Assembly: GCA_013821665.1 (NCBI GenBank)
Contig: JACDGI010000010.1
Location: forward strand, 1 to 33,128
Source of the DNA: Anaerolineae bacterium
GTDB lineage: Bacteria; Chloroflexota; Anaerolineae; Aggregatilineales; Phototrophicaceae
DNA length: 33,128 nt
Direction: 5' to 3'
Part shown: positions 4,026 through 31,719 of the stretch, piece after piece
Numbering within the stretch: the first letter of the stretch is position 1
Layout of the letters: every line of letters starts with the position of its first letter
The notes under the pieces: model-generated
Databases searched by the model: none
The model's input: the letters and a program-made list of their open reading frames with translations, nothing else
What the model was told of the DNA's origin: nothing
Program-made: the position numbers and the translations under genes

Positions 4026-4897
4026 GCCGCAGCCAAAACGTTAAGCGCGTTGTATTCGGCTTCCGAAAGCTGCAAACTAGCGGCACCAATATTATCTTCC
4101 AGATGGGCGACTGAACTGGTGCCGGGAATGGGCAGCATCACTGGTGAGTGCATTAAGAGCCACGCGATGGCGACCTGTCCGGTACTCACGCCATGCGCTT
4201 GAGCAATGGTGGCGATGACACCATCCGCCTGACCGAGTTTGCCCATTGCCAACGGGAAATAAGGTAAGAAGGGAATGTTCTGAGCCGCGCAAGCCTCGAG
4301 AACAGCCTCAGAATGTCGATCCGAGACGTTATAGAGGTTTTCCACCGAAACAATGGTTGCAATCGACTGGCCTTCGGCTAATTGTTCGACACCTACGCTG
4401 CTCAGGCCGAGATGCCGGATTTTCCCCTCACGTTGGAGATCAGCCATCGCACCAAAAGACTCGGCGAAGGGAACATCGCCAGCATCAAAGTGACGGAAGT
4501 GGACGAGGTCCAGATGATCCAACTTCAGCCGTTGCAGATTGGTTTCGCAGGTGGCGCGAATACGTTCAGGGCGAAAGTCGCTCTGCCAGCTTTTATCCTC
4601 ACCGCGTTTGGCACCGAGCTTACTGACAATGATGAGGTCTTTGGGATAAGGAAAAAGGGTTTCGGCGATGAGGCGGTTGGCGACCGATGGACCATAAGTT
4701 TCAGCGGTATCAATCAGGTTGACACCTAACTCGACTGCACGTTTAAGCACGGCTTTCGCGCCTTCCCGGTCTGCCGGTTCACCCCAGATGCCGGGGCCGG
4801 TCAAACGCATGGCTCCATACCCTAAACGATTGACGGTCAGATCGCCTAATTTGAGTGTGCCAGCGGCTTGGGCTGTCGGTAGTGTGTTCGTGGTCAT
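4022..4897 (-). CDS. Aldo/keto reductase
   Basis: GYGAMRLTGPGIWG, LIDTAETYGPS, IIVSKLG, HLDLVHFRHFD motifs. Start at ATG 4897 after AAGGAG, internal to the longer ORF. Confidence 0.93.
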   Translation of the reverse strand: MTTNTLPTAQAAGTLKLGDLTVNRLGYGAMRLTGPGIWGEPADREGAKAVLKRAVELGVNLIDTAETYGPSVANRLIAETLFPYPKDLIIVSKLGAKRGEDKSWQSDFRPERIRATCETNLQRLKLDHLDLVHFRHFDAGDVPFAESFGAMADLQREGKIRHLGLSSVGVEQLAEGQSIATIVSVENLYNVSDRHSEAVLEACAAQNIPFLPYFPLAMGKLGQADGVIATIAQAHGVSTGQVAIAWLLMHSPVMLPIPGTSSVAHLEDNIGAASLQLSEAEYNALNVLAAA

Positions 4898-5048
4898 TTT
4901 CATACTCCTTGAAATCCGGGTGTGCGAGGGCATAACCTATTTGGATGTGGCTTCCAGTGAAGCGCTGCACTAGAATCGCACCAATGGAATACCCGTACCA
5001 GAGTGTCTCGATACTGGTATTAAGACTACCAGCCTGAGAGGGTTTAAG

Positions 5049-5888
5049 ATGCAAGATAGCGAACGTAGACAAGCCCTAGCCGATTTCTTAAAGACGCGAC
5101 GGTCACGGTTAGCACCGGAAGCGGTCGGATTGCCGCGTGGTGTACGCCGCCGGACTCCCGGTTTACGACGCGAGGAAGTGGCACAACTGGCCCACATCGG
5201 TACGACATGGTACACATGGCTGGAACAAGAACGCGACATCCATGTGTCGGTGGATGTATTGGACAGCCTTGCCTCGGCGTTGATGCTGACACCTGATGAA
5301 CGGCGACATCTGTTCACTTTAGCTGAACAAGCGCTGCCGACTGATAATCCACCGTTTGAGGAAAAAATTAGCCCGATTATCGAACGATTTATAGACAACC
5401 TCGGCGACATTCCTTGTTATGTACTGGGGCGACGCTGGGATCGGATTGCGTGGAATGCAGCGGCCTGTGCCCTGTTTGAAGATTTCAGCTAGTTATCGGT
5501 GCGGGAACGTAACCTGATCTGGCAAGTGATGACCAACACCAATCGCAACCGGTTTGCGGGTGATTGGGACGAATCGGCGCGGCTGATTTTGGCAGAATTC
5601 CGGTCGGATTACGGGCGGCATGTGGGTGATCCGTGGTTCGCAGAACTCATCCGTGATTTGGAGGCGGCTAGTCCACAGTTCCGGCAGTGGTGGACACAAT
5701 ATGATGTACTCGAACCGATGGACCGGCGTAAGGTGATGAATCATCCGGTGATGGGCACATTGGTTTTTGAACATGTGACACTGCTGGTGCCAGAAAACCC
5801 TGACCTGAAGCTCATGATTTACAGCCCGTTACCGGAGTGCGATACACCGAATAAACTGCGTCAGTTGATGGAAACGGTTAAAGAGTAA
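5049..5888 (+). pseudogene. XRE-family HTH regulator with MmyB-like ligand domain, interrupted by an in-frame TAG at 5490-5492
   Basis: ORFs 5049-5492 and 5499-5888 lie in the same frame. Reading through gives 'CALFEDFS*LSVRERNLIWQVMTN', matching the usual MmyB-like 'FxDFSxLxxxERNL' continuity. HTH region is 'GVRRRTPGLRREEVAQLAHIGTTWYTWLEQERDIHVS'. Confidence 0.8.
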
Positions 5889-10770: not shown

Positions 10771-12054
10771 CTTTCAGGGGTAGGTATGGTCAAGATAAAG
10801 GTTGAAATTTCCAAGAAGAGCGCGGCCATTGTTCATAAACAAACTCACAAACGAAGACGGGAACATGGCGAATAAAGGCAGCCAGAATTGCTAGTTGACC
10901 GAGCGTAAAGCAAGAAAGACGACGATAACCTTTTTGGGACGGGCTCCAAGTATCGGGTAAGGGAGTGAATGAACTGGCAGGCAGTTGGGATGCAACAGAG
11001 CCGCCGACACTCAGTGTCCATAAAGTGGCGACGGTCAGAACCAACCAGAGGCGTTCGGCACGAGCAGGATCCTGCATCTTGGTATGATGCCAACCCCAAC
11101 CCCCGCGTTTGAGGTCTTTAAAACCGGCTTCAATCCACGAGCGCATCCCATACCAAGCAATATCGGCGTGTTTGGGTGCTAAATCTGTCACGACCAACCA
11201 AGGATCGTCATAGGTTGGGTCATAATGTGCTAACAAGGTGCAGTCGAGTTGGGAATCTTTGGTTTTAAAACAGGTCACACGCCCCGACCAGTCGGGACGT
11301 TGAGCATGAACCAGGCTGGATAAAAGCCGAAAACAGCGATTGCGTTGCGGGCGAAATTGACCCTGTTGGTTGATGCGTAGAAACGGATGCCACTCCACCT
11401 GTAGACACTTCTGGTATAACCATTTGGCATACAAGCCTCGATCCGCTAAAACCAAGACAAACCAGTCGGCAGGGACAGCCGACGATAAATGGTCGATTAA
11501 GCCTTCCCAATGCGGTCGCCACTCGCCTTTTTGCTCACTTTTCAATACTTTCCAAGCCACCGGAATAGCGCATCCCCGATAGACAACACTAATGCTCAGT
11601 ACCGTGAAGATATTCCGAAAACTGGTGGCATCTAATACCAAGGCCAGACGCTGTTCGCTGCTCGCCCACCACGATAATATCCATTTCAGTAAGTCCCCAA
11701 AACTGTGTTCAACCGCTAAACTGCGGCGTTTTTCCCCTCGTTTATCCCTACCCTCATACGTGAATTCCCGTAAACGCTGGCGCAGTGTATTCGGCGATTG
11801 TTCAAGTAGCATACTCAGCAAGCCGCTAATCTTACTGATCCCACAGCATTGGCTTAACACCGCTCCAAAGCTATACAGAGCCAGTACCTTCGCCTCGGCT
11901 GAGTACAAATGCGGTAACTTCCTTGACACGATCTCCATCCATTCCGATAATTCTTGTTGGTGGTGTCTCATTTTCTCAGGTTTCGATTGGTTTTAGAGAA
12001 CTCTATCTTAACCTGTTTTTTTGCCTCACCACCTCAAATACCTACCCCTGAAAG
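10771..12054 (-). mobile_element. IS4-like insertion sequence
   Basis: 17-bp perfect terminal inverted repeat CTTTCAGGGGTAGGTAT (10771-10787) / ATACCTACCCCTGAAAG (12038-12054) flanking the transposase ORF. Confidence 0.85.
10790..11971 (-). CDS. DDE transposase (IS4-family-like)
   Basis: 'LALVLDATSF' (D), 'VLVLADRGLYAKWL' (D), 'WYGMRSWIEAGFKDLKRGGWGWHHTKMQDPARAERLWL' (Y-R-E signature). Confidence 0.9.
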   Translation of the reverse strand: MRHHQQELSEWMEIVSRKLPHLYSAEAKVLALYSFGAVLSQCCGISKISGLLSMLLEQSPNTLRQRLREFTYEGRDKRGEKRRSLAVEHSFGDLLKWILSWWASSEQRLALVLDATSFRNIFTVLSISVVYRGCAIPVAWKVLKSEQKGEWRPHWEGLIDHLSSAVPADWFVLVLADRGLYAKWLYQKCLQVEWHPFLRINQQGQFRPQRNRCFRLLSSLVHAQRPDWSGRVTCFKTKDSQLDCTLLAHYDPTYDDPWLVVTDLAPKHADIAWYGMRSWIEAGFKDLKRGGWGWHHTKMQDPARAERLWLVLTVATLWTLSVGGSVASQLPASSFTPLPDTWSPSQKGYRRLSCFTLGQLAILAAFIRHVPVFVCEFVYEQWPRSSWKFQPLS

Positions 12055-12076
12055 GGGTTGGGGTGGGGGTTCTTTC

Positions 12077-26901: not shown

Positions 26902-26996
26902 TTTAACCACAGAGACACAAAGAACACCCAGATCAATGCGGAGAGTGTTAACCGCAGAGTCACAGAGAACGCGGAGATTAAGACAGAGAAAAGTAG
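26902..26996 (+). repeat. CGCAGAG-type intergenic repeat (copy 4, double)
   Basis: tttaaccacagagacacaaagaacacccagatcaatgcggagagtgttaaccgcagagtcacagagaacgcggagattaagacagagaaa upstream of the M20 peptidase. Confidence 0.8.
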
Positions 26997-27090: not shown

Positions 27091-28380
27091 ATGATTGATG
27101 CGGTGGTGTTGTTGCAGGAATTGGTGAAAATTCCATCACCGAATTTGCCGGGGGATACACGAGCGATTGCGGCTTATATTGCCGAGGTGATGCGCGAGGC
27201 GGGGTGCATGGTGAAGATGCTTGCACCGGAGCAAAAACCAGAGGCGCAAAGTGTGGTGGCGACATTTGGTCAAGGTGCGCCGGTGATTATGCTGCACGCA
27301 CATATTGATACGGTGCCGATTGCGGTGAATGAGGCACAGCGCTGGAGTGTCGATCCGTATGCAGCGGTGATTCAAGAAGGGAAACTTTACGGCAAAGGCA
27401 GTGTGGATGATAAAGCGCCGTTGGCCGCGATGATGGCGGTGATTTTGGAGAAAGCGCATCCTCTCCCCCTAACCCCCTCTCCGCTGCGCAGCGAGAGGGA
27501 ACCAGAAAATGCAAAACCTCTTTCTCAACACGGAAACGAGGGGGAACAAATAGAGGGGACGTTAGTGCTGGTGGCGGCGGCGGAAGAGGAAACAGGTGGA
27601 GTGTTAGGTACCAAATGGCTGGCAGAAAATGGGCATCTGCCAATGTGTGATTTTATTGTGGTGGGCGAGCAAACGCATAACCATGTAGCGACAGCGCATA
27701 AGGGTGTGATGCGTGCGACGGTTCGCGCTACTGGACGGTCGGTTCATGCGACCAACCCTGACCGGGGTGTGAATGCGATCACAGCGATGGCGAAGGCAGT
27801 TCTGGCGCTGGATGCTTACCACAAGGAACTGGCAACGCGACCGCATCCGATTGTGGGCGTTCCGACTTGCAATGTGGGCGTGATTCAAGGTGGGAGTACA
27901 GCGAACGCGGTGCCGGATAGCTGCGTGGTTTATCTCGACCGTCGAATGGTTCCCGGTGAAAATCCAGCGGTGGTGCAGGATGAAATGCGAGCGGTAATCG
28001 ATGGAGTCGATGCAGGTGAGGCAACGCTCAGCATTGGCGAGTTCCAAACCTCAAACTGGTTTGAATCGACGGCAGTATCAGCGTTGGCGCAGACATTTTT
28101 GGGATGTGTGGAGGGGGAGTTCAGAAAAACCCTCGCCCCCCAGCCCCCTCTCCCTCATGGCGAGGGGGAGTCAGAAAATCCTTATTATCCGGGGCCGATT
28201 GGGTATTTGCCGGGAAGTGATGCCAAACATCTGACAGGCGTGACGCGCGGTGAGATGATCATCTTCGGGCCGGGGAGCTATGAGGTGGCTCACGCGTTTG
28301 ACGAATATGTGGATGTGAAAGAGTTTGCAAGTACAGTGAATATCCTACGGGCATTTGTGGAACATACAATACGGGATTAA
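27091..28380 (+). CDS. M20 family metallopeptidase (ArgE/DapE-like)
   Basis: 'VIMLHAHIDTVPIAVN', 'LYGKGSVDDKAPLAAMMAVIL', 'LVAAAEEETGGVLGTKWL', 'TCNVGVIQGGSTANAVPDSCVVYLDRR', 'YLPGSDAKHL'. Contains two palindromic insertions. Confidence 0.93.
   Translation: MIDAVVLLQELVKIPSPNLPGDTRAIAAYIAEVMREAGCMVKMLAPEQKPEAQSVVATFGQGAPVIMLHAHIDTVPIAVNEAQRWSVDPYAAVIQEGKLYGKGSVDDKAPLAAMMAVILEKAHPLPLTPSPLRSEREPENAKPLSQHGNEGEQIEGTLVLVAAAEEETGGVLGTKWLAENGHLPMCDFIVVGEQTHNHVATAHKGVMRATVRATGRSVHATNPDRGVNAITAMAKAVLALDAYHKELATRPHPIVGVPTCNVGVIQGGSTANAVPDSCVVYLDRRMVPGENPAVVQDEMRAVIDGVDAGEATLSIGEFQTSNWFESTAVSALAQTFLGCVEGEFRKTLAPQPPLPHGEGESENPYYPGPIGYLPGSDAKHLTGVTRGEMIIFGPGSYEVAHAFDEYVDVKEFASTVNILRAFVEHTIRD
27454..27557 (+). 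repeat. GC-rich palindromic element inserted in frame in the M20 peptidase gene
   Basis: Core hairpin CCCTCT-c-CGCTGC/GCAGCG-AGAGGG (27475-27499); encodes HPLPLTPSPLRSEREPENAKPLSQHGNEGEQIE. Confidence 0.75.
28111..28179 (+). repeat. Second palindromic element inserted in frame in the M20 peptidase gene
   Basis: Hairpin CCCTCGCC (28130-28137) / GGCGAGGG (28159-28166), flanked by near-identical GAGGGGGAG(T)TCAGAAAA. Confidence 0.75.
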
Positions 28381-28455
28381 TCGCCAAGACGCAGAGAGAT
28401 ACACGAGTTTAACCGCAGAGGCGCAGAGAACGCCGAGAGTAAACAGAGCAGAGAA
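28381..28455 (+). repeat. CGCAGAG-type intergenic repeat (copy 5, double)
   Basis: tcgccaagacgcagagagatacacgagtttaaccgcagaggcgcagagaacgccgagagtaaacagagcagagaaa upstream of the amidohydrolase. Confidence 0.8.
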
Positions 28456-29970: not shown

Positions 29971-31719
29971 ATGAGCTACAACATTGAATTCGGGGAATAT
30001 TTTCTGTTTGATGAGCTGACGAGTCATTTGAAGGCGCTGGCGAATAGTTATCCGGCACTGGCAACGTTGGAGTCGTTGGGAAAAAGTTGGCGCGAGCGTG
30101 ACATCTGGTGCCTGACGATCACCAACAGCGCGACCGGTGAACATACGACTAAACCGGCCTTTTATATCGATGCACATATCCACGCGGAAGAAGTGACTAC
30201 ATCGCATACGGCGCTGTATACGATCTGGTATCTGCTGACGAATTATGGAAGCGATGCGCAAGTCACTTGGCTGCTGGATAACACCACGTTTTATATCATC
30301 CCACGACTGAATCCGGACGGCGCAGAAATCAGTTTGACGACGGCCCATCATTGGTGTGGGAACGGGCGCTATCTACCGGGCGAGGAACAGACGCACGGTT
30401 TGTGCCAGCAGGACATCAACGGTGATGGATTGATTGTGCAAATGCGCATCAAAGATGACGCGGGCGAGTGGAAAATTTCCAAGGATGACCCGCGCTTGAT
30501 GATCCAACGGCAAGCGGGCGAAATCGGTGATGGGCCTTATTACCGCTTGTATCGCGAGGGGTTGATCAAGGGCGATTGGGACGGCGTGACGATTGATATT
30601 GAACGTCCGCGCGACGGCAACCTGAACCGCAATTTTCCCGCCGGATGGTGGTCGGAGCAGCGTCAATATGGCGCGGGTGATTTACCACTTTCAGAGCCAG
30701 AAGCGCTGGCTTGCGCACAATTTATTTTAAGTCACCCGAATATCGCGGGGATGCAGTGCTATCACACGCATGGCGGTTTACATCTACGACCATCGTTGAT
30801 CGCACCGGATGCGACGTTACCAAGAAGTGATCTGGCACTCATCAAACGGATCGGAGCGATGGGTACGGCTATCACCGGTTATCCAACCATTTCGGTGTAT
30901 GAGGAATTTACCAGTGATCCCGACAATCCACGGACGGGGTCGTTGATGCAGTGGTCATATGACGAGATGGGCATCATCACCTTCTCGACGGAGTTGTGGA
31001 ACCCTGAGTTGGCGGCGGGTTTGCAAGATCCGGCGAAGTATCAAATCCGAGCGCGTTCGACCGAGGATGAAGTTAAGCTGCTCAAATATAACGATGAGCA
31101 TCTGGGCGGCAAAGGCTTTGTAAATTGGGAGCCATTTGAGCATCCGCAGTTGGGTTCAATTGAGATTGGCGGATGGACGCATATGTATACCTTCCGCAAT
31201 CCGCCGCCAGCATCCATGGCGACAACTGAGAAGGCACGAAATTTCCTTCGGGATACGATCCACAATAACTGCTTATTCACGCTCAAACATGCGGCTTGTA
31301 CACCTTTGGTACAAATCGAGTCAGTGAAGGCCGAATCACTGGGTGCGAATTTATATAAGGTAACGACGGTGGTGGCGAATGTGGGTTTCCTGCCGACGAA
31401 TATGACGGCACGGGCATTGAAGCATGGGACGGCGGGAAGTGTGAAAGCAGAATTACAGTTATCCCCTCCTCCCAGCCCCCTCTCTGCGAAGCGGGGAGGG
31501 GGAGAAGTCCAATTGATTATGAACGCACAAAGTCAAGATCTAGGGCATTTAGCGGGGCGTGATGAACGGGTGGCGACGTGGTCACCGTGGATGACAGATT
31601 GGCATCATCCAAAAGGCAAAGCCGAGTGGTTGGTGCGCGGTGATGCGGGCAGTACGATCACGATTACGGCAGGCGCTCAACGGGCGGGATGGAAACAAGC
31701 ATCGGTGACGTTGGAATAG
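29971..31719 (+). CDS. M14 family zinc carboxypeptidase
   Basis: 'YIDAHIHAEEVTT' (HxxE), 'IIPRLNPDGAE', 'GMQCYHTHGG' (His ligand), 'TFSTELWNPE' (catalytic Glu). Confidence 0.92.
   Translation: MSYNIEFGEYFLFDELTSHLKALANSYPALATLESLGKSWRERDIWCLTITNSATGEHTTKPAFYIDAHIHAEEVTTSHTALYTIWYLLTNYGSDAQVTWLLDNTTFYIIPRLNPDGAEISLTTAHHWCGNGRYLPGEEQTHGLCQQDINGDGLIVQMRIKDDAGEWKISKDDPRLMIQRQAGEIGDGPYYRLYREGLIKGDWDGVTIDIERPRDGNLNRNFPAGWWSEQRQYGAGDLPLSEPEALACAQFILSHPNIAGMQCYHTHGGLHLRPSLIAPDATLPRSDLALIKRIGAMGTAITGYPTISVYEEFTSDPDNPRTGSLMQWSYDEMGIITFSTELWNPELAAGLQDPAKYQIRARSTEDEVKLLKYNDEHLGGKGFVNWEPFEHPQLGSIEIGGWTHMYTFRNPPPASMATTEKARNFLRDTIHNNCLFTLKHAACTPLVQIESVKAESLGANLYKVTTVVANVGFLPTNMTARALKHGTAGSVKAELQLSPPPSPLSAKRGGGEVQLIMNAQSQDLGHLAGRDERVATWSPWMTDWHHPKGKAEWLVRGDAGSTITITAGAQRAGWKQASVTLE
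31463..31504 (+). repeat. GC-rich palindromic element inserted in frame in the M14 peptidase gene
   Basis: CCCCTCCTCCCAGCCCCCTCTCTGCGAAGCGGGGAGGGGGAG, encoding LSPPPSPLSAKRGGGE. Confidence 0.7.

Follow-up and report, generated by a model that had tools for sequence, protein, structure and literature searches.

The extra stretch carried in frame by the M20 peptidase gene studied here is a copy of one short repeat, which has proliferated in this Chloroflexota genus, resides in frame in other genes, is matched by empty sites in orthologs and is found elsewhere as paired, inverted ends of DUF559 genes. On its sequence, this repeat belongs to the intrastrand-triplex (TM/PIT) repeats, the kind known in E. 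coli as TM_ECO or PIT. The best reading of these data, and in our judgement a probable one, is that such copies are solitary, non-autonomous ends of a mobile cassette encoding a DUF559 nuclease, tolerated in surface loops. The pairing of DUF559 with the motifs is seen directly, and mobilisation by DUF559 is what we infer. Throughout, the window is the whole stretch of DNA analysed (33,128 nucleotides), and the source genome is the genome to which it belongs.

Insertion 1 in the M20 peptidase gene

The features of the window are as follows (position, strand, description and, for some, basis).

27091-28380, +, intact M20 peptidase gene (ArgE/DapE-like) with two repeat insertions (PF01546 and PF07687, TIGR01910; ortholog alignment)
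27454-27557, +, insertion 1 block, missing in 13 of 16 orthologs (alignment and tree)
27460-27469, +, head of triplex motif copy 1, CCTCTCCCCC, an exact mirror of the 5' arm (sequence)
27470-27472, +, TAA spacer of copy 1 (the G-rich strand reads TTA, like type A of TM_ECO; sequence)
27473-27499, +, hairpin of copy 1, with 5' arm CCCCCTCTCC at 27473-27482
27483-27492, +, loop of the copy 1 hairpin, GCTGCGCAGC, self-complementary
27493-27499, +, 3' arm of the copy 1 hairpin, GAGAGGG
27500-27509, +, A-rich tail of copy 1, AACCAGAAAA, common to other copies
27538-27551, +, remnant of the 3' end of an older copy, GAGGGGGAACAAAT, a word also in L002 and L012
28127-28172, +, copy 2 of the triplex motif, in frame within this M20 gene, absent from 16 of 16 orthologs
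31459-31506, +, copy 3 of the triplex motif, in frame within an M14 carboxypeptidase gene (29971-31719)
12041-12072, -, intergenic, matches the repeat model weakly (14.5 bits)

An earlier note had described an in-frame insertion at 27454-27557 with frame and flanking motifs preserved, and both points are borne out: the M20 frame is open from 27091 to 28380, and the M20 motifs are undamaged on either side. The insertion interrupts the protein after the helix that closes with ...AVILEK and ahead of the strand GTLVLVAAAEEE, in the helix-strand loop that precedes the catalytic EEET strand; in PDB relatives such as 7uoi the same two elements are connected by a short loop. The extra stretch is about 30 residues long (the note counted about 32, and the string that it quoted holds 31). 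Because the distance from DDK to AEEE is 62 residues here versus 36 in empty orthologs, the net gain is 26 residues. We take the insert to be tolerated in a surface loop of the enzyme.

Alignment with 16 M20 orthologs from the genus and family shows a clean insertion, with no segment conserved among close orthologs: 13 are empty, and the other three (G003, G015 and G012) are occupied at the identical codon by repeat copies that differ from this one. In the M20 tree, G010, G011 and G014/G007 separate G012 from the clade of the source genome (G000), G003 and G015 with node support of 99-100%, and because of this position of G012 the site must have been occupied at least twice, or converted. The site is also layered, with an intact copy adjoining the 3' remnant of an older copy; in G015 the repeat copy is broken by a second, 36-bp palindrome.

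The repeat proper occupies 27460-27509 only, about 50 bp. In the remainder of the block, 27510-27557, which the earlier note had included in its palindrome, a second copy has left its decayed 3' end (GAGGGGGAACAAAT, 27538-27551) among other sequence. The core hairpin that the note placed at 27475-27499 is genuine, with a DNA fold of -8.7 kcal/mol (z -3.4) that is stronger than chance; it is part not of a plain palindrome but of an intrastrand-triplex arrangement of mirror head, spacer and hairpin. A finder for this head-spacer-hairpin order makes two matches in the window and none in 100 dinucleotide shuffles. When hairpin arms and mirror block are required to be consecutive, with a stem of at least 8 nt and at most one mismatch per block, copies 1 and 2 are recovered, again with none in 100 shuffles. 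Copy 2 lies within short-loop limits, the loop of copy 1 is 11 nt long and itself paired, and copy 3 fails the mirror test and retains the hairpin only.

The locus of copy 2 is 57 nt longer than the empty site of G003, copy 3 is missing from all M14 orthologs, and relative to close empty sites the net gains for insertions 1, 2 and 3 are 26, 19 and 12 codons. All window copies are solitary, inside the M20 and M14 genes, with no DUF559 gene between inverted motifs there. The window also holds intergenic sequence of AACCACAGAGACACAAAGAACAC / AACCGCAGAGGCGCAGAGAACGC type (26906-26980 and 28385-28450), which resembles another dispersed repeat family, and a DDE transposase gene (PF01609; 10790-11971, minus strand) that is a separate insertion sequence.

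Abundance of the repeat and residence in genes

The source-genome consensus reads AGAAA-TCCTCaCCCCC-TAA-CCCCCTCTCC-loop-GGcGAGGGGG-AAccAAAA, in which the head mirrors the 5' arm; the usual T of the head would stand opposite an A-T pair on the G-rich strand, a placement that should be permitted in a purine-motif triplex. The block is not unique: it has 28 BLAST matches, and with up to 150 candidates scored a covariance model finds at least 140 copies in the source genome, mostly intergenic, and between 3 and at least 140 in each of the 17 genus genomes. This model holds little structure (4 pairs) and was trained mainly on source-genome copies, its E-values are rough, and the genomes compared are mostly MAGs. 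Density is about 16-22 per Mb in a 322-kb sample of the source genome and zero after shuffling; the architecture finder makes 7 matches in 322 kb of source-genome sequence outside the window, likewise with none after shuffling. The runs in the head and in both arms are correlated in length at 0.4-0.65, with relatedness uncontrolled. The flanks converge on AGAAA at one end and on AAxxAAAA at the other, and a test for target-site duplication found shared flank words slightly in excess in the source genome and none in the genus set, no consistent signal.

A second palindrome of 34-36 bp (ACATCAGCAACGTTCGCAGGCTCACTCTGCTGATAG and variants, with compensatory arm changes) has 18 copies in the source genome and occurs in three other species; at L021, L031 and L342-L371, all 28 of the 28 copies read lie at one spot in the 5' arm of triplex motifs whose own loops differ. 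At L009, L012 and L013 the intergenic copies belong to a larger element, perhaps a composite MITE, bounded by inverted sequences of the type CAGGAGACGACACTTTTT ... AAAAATGTCGTCCTCTG. At L307, a phosphotransferase (APH) gene contains tandem triplex-motif peptides (SPASEGG...PNPSPIATGEGS...PHPPTPSPLHGRGG), apparently through repeated insertion or local expansion.

Residence in coding frames is recurrent. About 50 source-genome copies include 6 in frame, 3 of them in the window; among genus relatives the figure is at least 10 of 55 (argC, a glycosyltransferase at two sites, a methyltransferase, PNP, TIR-NACHT/TIR proteins, YfhO and MmeI); and some 20 of the 123 copies from other phyla lie inside long frames (lipB, purL, metG, asparagine synthase, ligA, pepP, gltB and pyrF). 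These fractions are approximate because frames were called by a simple hexamer score or by frame length. Family models bridge the insertion in LipB, PurL, MetG, LigA, Xaa-Pro aminopeptidase and GltB, and intragenic REPs and Rickettsia palindromic elements (RPEs) are prior precedents (PMC3733652, PMC2229807). The earlier note's idea of a proliferating short repeat tolerated in coding sequence thus stands, on some 140 genome copies, empty ortholog sites and other genes with in-frame copies. Its suggestion of mobility is supported by presence and absence at orthologous sites; the mover would be the DUF559 nuclease.

The exact 23-mer CCTCACCCCCTAACCCCCTCTCC occurs in at least 120 stretches from many phyla, among them Chloroflexota, Cyanobacteria, Bacteroidota, Planctomycetota, Armatimonadota, Gemmatimonadota, Myxococcota and Peribacteria. 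Among the matches listed, nearly all are trailed, after a variable loop, by the complementary arm, so it is the whole structure, and not merely a word, that is common to these phyla. The motif is present in isolates too, Oscillatoria PCC 10802 and E. coli K-12 among them. Carriage by phages or plasmids was considered and rejected: matches number 0 in 50,697 phage records, 6 in 72,556 plasmids and 7 viral-contig stretches.

Association with DUF559 genes

At pyrF (L266) and MmeI (L274) a DUF559 domain lies between triplex motifs in a single open frame, and because of these two loci we tested the adjacency of DUF559 and motif directly. Within the genus, a motif lies within 300 bp of 24 of 25 full DUF559 genes, against 0.35 of 25 expected from motif density; 18 genes have motifs on both sides, inverted in 15. 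Some of these flanking motifs are weak (12-25 bits), and the strongest reach at least 50 bits. The flanking repeats are usually inverted ends with heads outward. The source genome contains one complete cassette of this kind (L386; G000:C4, about 4735-5289), a repeat-DUF559-repeat unit of about 0.55 kb with outer ends AGAAACCTC / GAGGTTTCT and the loop AATGCTTT, the second commonest among source-genome copies. Its parts, in coordinates of L386, are:

1343-1389, +, triplex motif
1417-1830, DUF559 ORF of 138 codons
1852-1897, -, triplex motif

The association extends beyond the genus. In other phyla a motif is found within 300 bp of about 23 of 30 DUF559 loci, and the DUF559 gene ycjD of E. coli K-12, a strain with 23 motifs, has a TM_ECO copy 168 bp away and a second motif hairpin over its last codons. 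Across 121 genomes of the order, all 62 with DUF559 carry motifs (median 40.5), and the 59 without have a median of 4 and 18 zeros (p 3e-8 for counts; Mann-Whitney 9e-6 after genome size; Fisher 5e-7 for presence and absence), in tests inflated by the relatedness of the genomes. Motifs are nevertheless present in 41 of the DUF559-negative genomes and also, within the genus, in G008 and G002, so copies can persist or spread where DUF559 is not detected. DUF559 with its motifs also interrupts host domains in frame, in pyrF, in FGE-sulfatase domains (three genomes) and in MmeI methylase domains of other genomes. Three species (L389, L391, L402) share the profile position at which the FGE-sulfatase domain is broken, and in two of them an nSTAND1 domain adjoins.

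YcjD belongs to the PD-(D/E)XK superfamily, with Vsr as a relative (PMC1189080). The association of DUF559 with the motif is new here, and in the titles and abstracts of the literature, subscription papers apart, no link of DUF559, YcjD or PF04480 to repeats is apparent. The E. coli ycjD locus (L410, 11030-11800) is polymorphic: 3333 of 5426 genomes match it over 80% or more of the region. It was rejected as a clean empty site, since a strain lacking ycjD (L441) has an RND efflux operon there, next to fabI.

We propose the following account. Insertion 1 is a solitary short repeat able to fold as an intrastrand triplex (the architecture is shown, the folding predicted), of a kind that proliferates in this genus and some of whose copies have landed inside genes. 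The DUF559 PD-(D/E)XK nuclease would recognise the folded repeat and cut, and repair would then copy the motif, or the entire cassette, into new sites. Solitary repeats would be non-autonomous derivatives, as REPs are to RAYTs with an unrelated enzyme, and copies that keep the frame in surface loops would outlast purifying selection. Movement itself is unseen in the genome comparisons, no consistent target-site duplication marks the copies, and the association could instead reflect DUF559 acting on the motif during repair.

This last thought belongs to an explanation with no moving enzyme, which we consider unlikely though deserving of weight: replication slippage, template switching or gene conversion at triplex or hairpin stalls would spread the repeat, and DUF559 would be a repair nuclease on such structures. 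The missing target duplication, the layered and replaced copies at the first M20 site, and the behaviour of TM_ECO loci, unstable in E. coli and not accompanied by mobile elements (Holder 2015, PMC4666352), all suit it; however, it leaves unexplained both the paired, inverted motif ends of DUF559 genes and the in-frame DUF559 cassettes in unrelated host domains.

Mobilisation of a REP-like repeat by RAYT (Y1 tyrosine) transposases is distinctly improbable. Of the 17 genus genomes, 15 have RAYT-like genes, and across the order the motif median is 31 in genomes with RAYT versus 3 in those without; but about 20 RAYT loci yield a single weak motif and no adjacent ones, the repeat ends lack the GTAG/CGTC tag, 8 RAYT-positive genomes are motif-free, and 9 RAYT-negative genomes have at least 25 motifs. 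The correlation itself is weaker (Fisher 0.02; p just 0.03 after genome size), and DUF559 presence predicts motif abundance over the 121 genomes better than RAYT presence does. On the absent adjacency and the weaker correlation, we reject this route.

It is very improbable that selection maintains the inserted peptide for a function in the M20 enzyme: the insert is in frame at one loop in four species, but it varies among them in sequence and length, the 13 empty orthologs do without it, and the same insert peptides appear in unrelated proteins. An artefact of a contaminated or misassembled metagenome bin is barely credible for this draft (1025 contigs, 6.5% contamination), given other copies at the first M20 site in three other species with frames intact and motifs in the two isolates named above.

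Comparison with known repeats

The earlier note likened the insertion to the Rickettsia palindromic elements, and as an analogy this is apt: both are in-frame, tolerated insertions across many unrelated genes. As an identity it fails on size, taxon and sequence alike, since RPEs are Rickettsia-specific and 105-146 bp long (PMC2229807), whereas the present repeat, from an Aggregatilineales genus, is about 50 bp, G/C-rich, of the triplex family and found across phyla. Homing endonuclease and intein insertions share with our cassettes an in-frame nuclease region within host genes and recognisable ends; here, however, no splicing domain is seen, the ends are triplex motifs, and most copies are solitary ends without a nuclease. 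REP, REPIN and BIME repeats with their RAYTs come close in organisation, as short hairpin repeats at high copy, solitary or paired, that flank a dedicated protein gene. They differ in the GTAG/CGTC tag and nearby RAYT, both absent here, and in the partner, which is a Vsr-like PD-(D/E)XK protein (DUF559) rather than an HUH enzyme.

TM_ECO (earlier PIT) is an intrastrand triplex motif with many copies in Proteobacteria (Holder et al. 2015, PMC4666352). Its triplex is stable in vitro, no stable triplex was seen in vivo, and it is tied to local instability in E. coli (PMC4666352). Both repeats consist of a C-rich block, a hairpin and a mirror block, with TTA as the spacer when the G-rich strand is read; both reach high copy number per genome, vary in the loop and form inverted pairs. 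Only in its G-run lengths does the TM_ECO type A word, GAGAGGGTTAGGGTGAGG, depart from the present repeat. Within the open literature, any of six such triplex sequence words turn up in just PMC4666352 and two further papers. The stem here is CCCCCTCTCC and that of TM_ECO CCCTCNCCC; the strict consensus CCCTCNCCC N3-6 GGGNGAGGG N3 GGGNGAGGG does not describe the window copies, which have the CCCCCTCTCC stem or a longer spacer, and two source-genome copies (L017, L143) are nearer to it. The present repeat is also in Chloroflexota, in frame in genes and DUF559-linked, whereas the E. coli K-12 copies are intergenic without exception (PMC4666352).

TM/PIT repeats have so far been described without a function, mover or partner protein (PMC4666352), and the name DUF559, borne by a widespread family, still means unknown function. 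We lean towards the view that bacterial intrastrand-triplex repeats, TM_ECO included, are termini and non-autonomous relatives of a pan-bacterial DUF559/YcjD mobile element, REP-RAYT-like with an unrelated enzyme, that also inserts in frame in conserved genes. If the tie between DUF559 and motif is true, it would explain the recurrent proline-rich peptides (PHPLTPSPLRREGE, PPLYAVERGLGGEV) that appear within conserved proteins in many phyla and can lead annotation and structure prediction astray, and it makes both repeat and protein family testable in E. coli K-12, where motifs and ycjD occur together.
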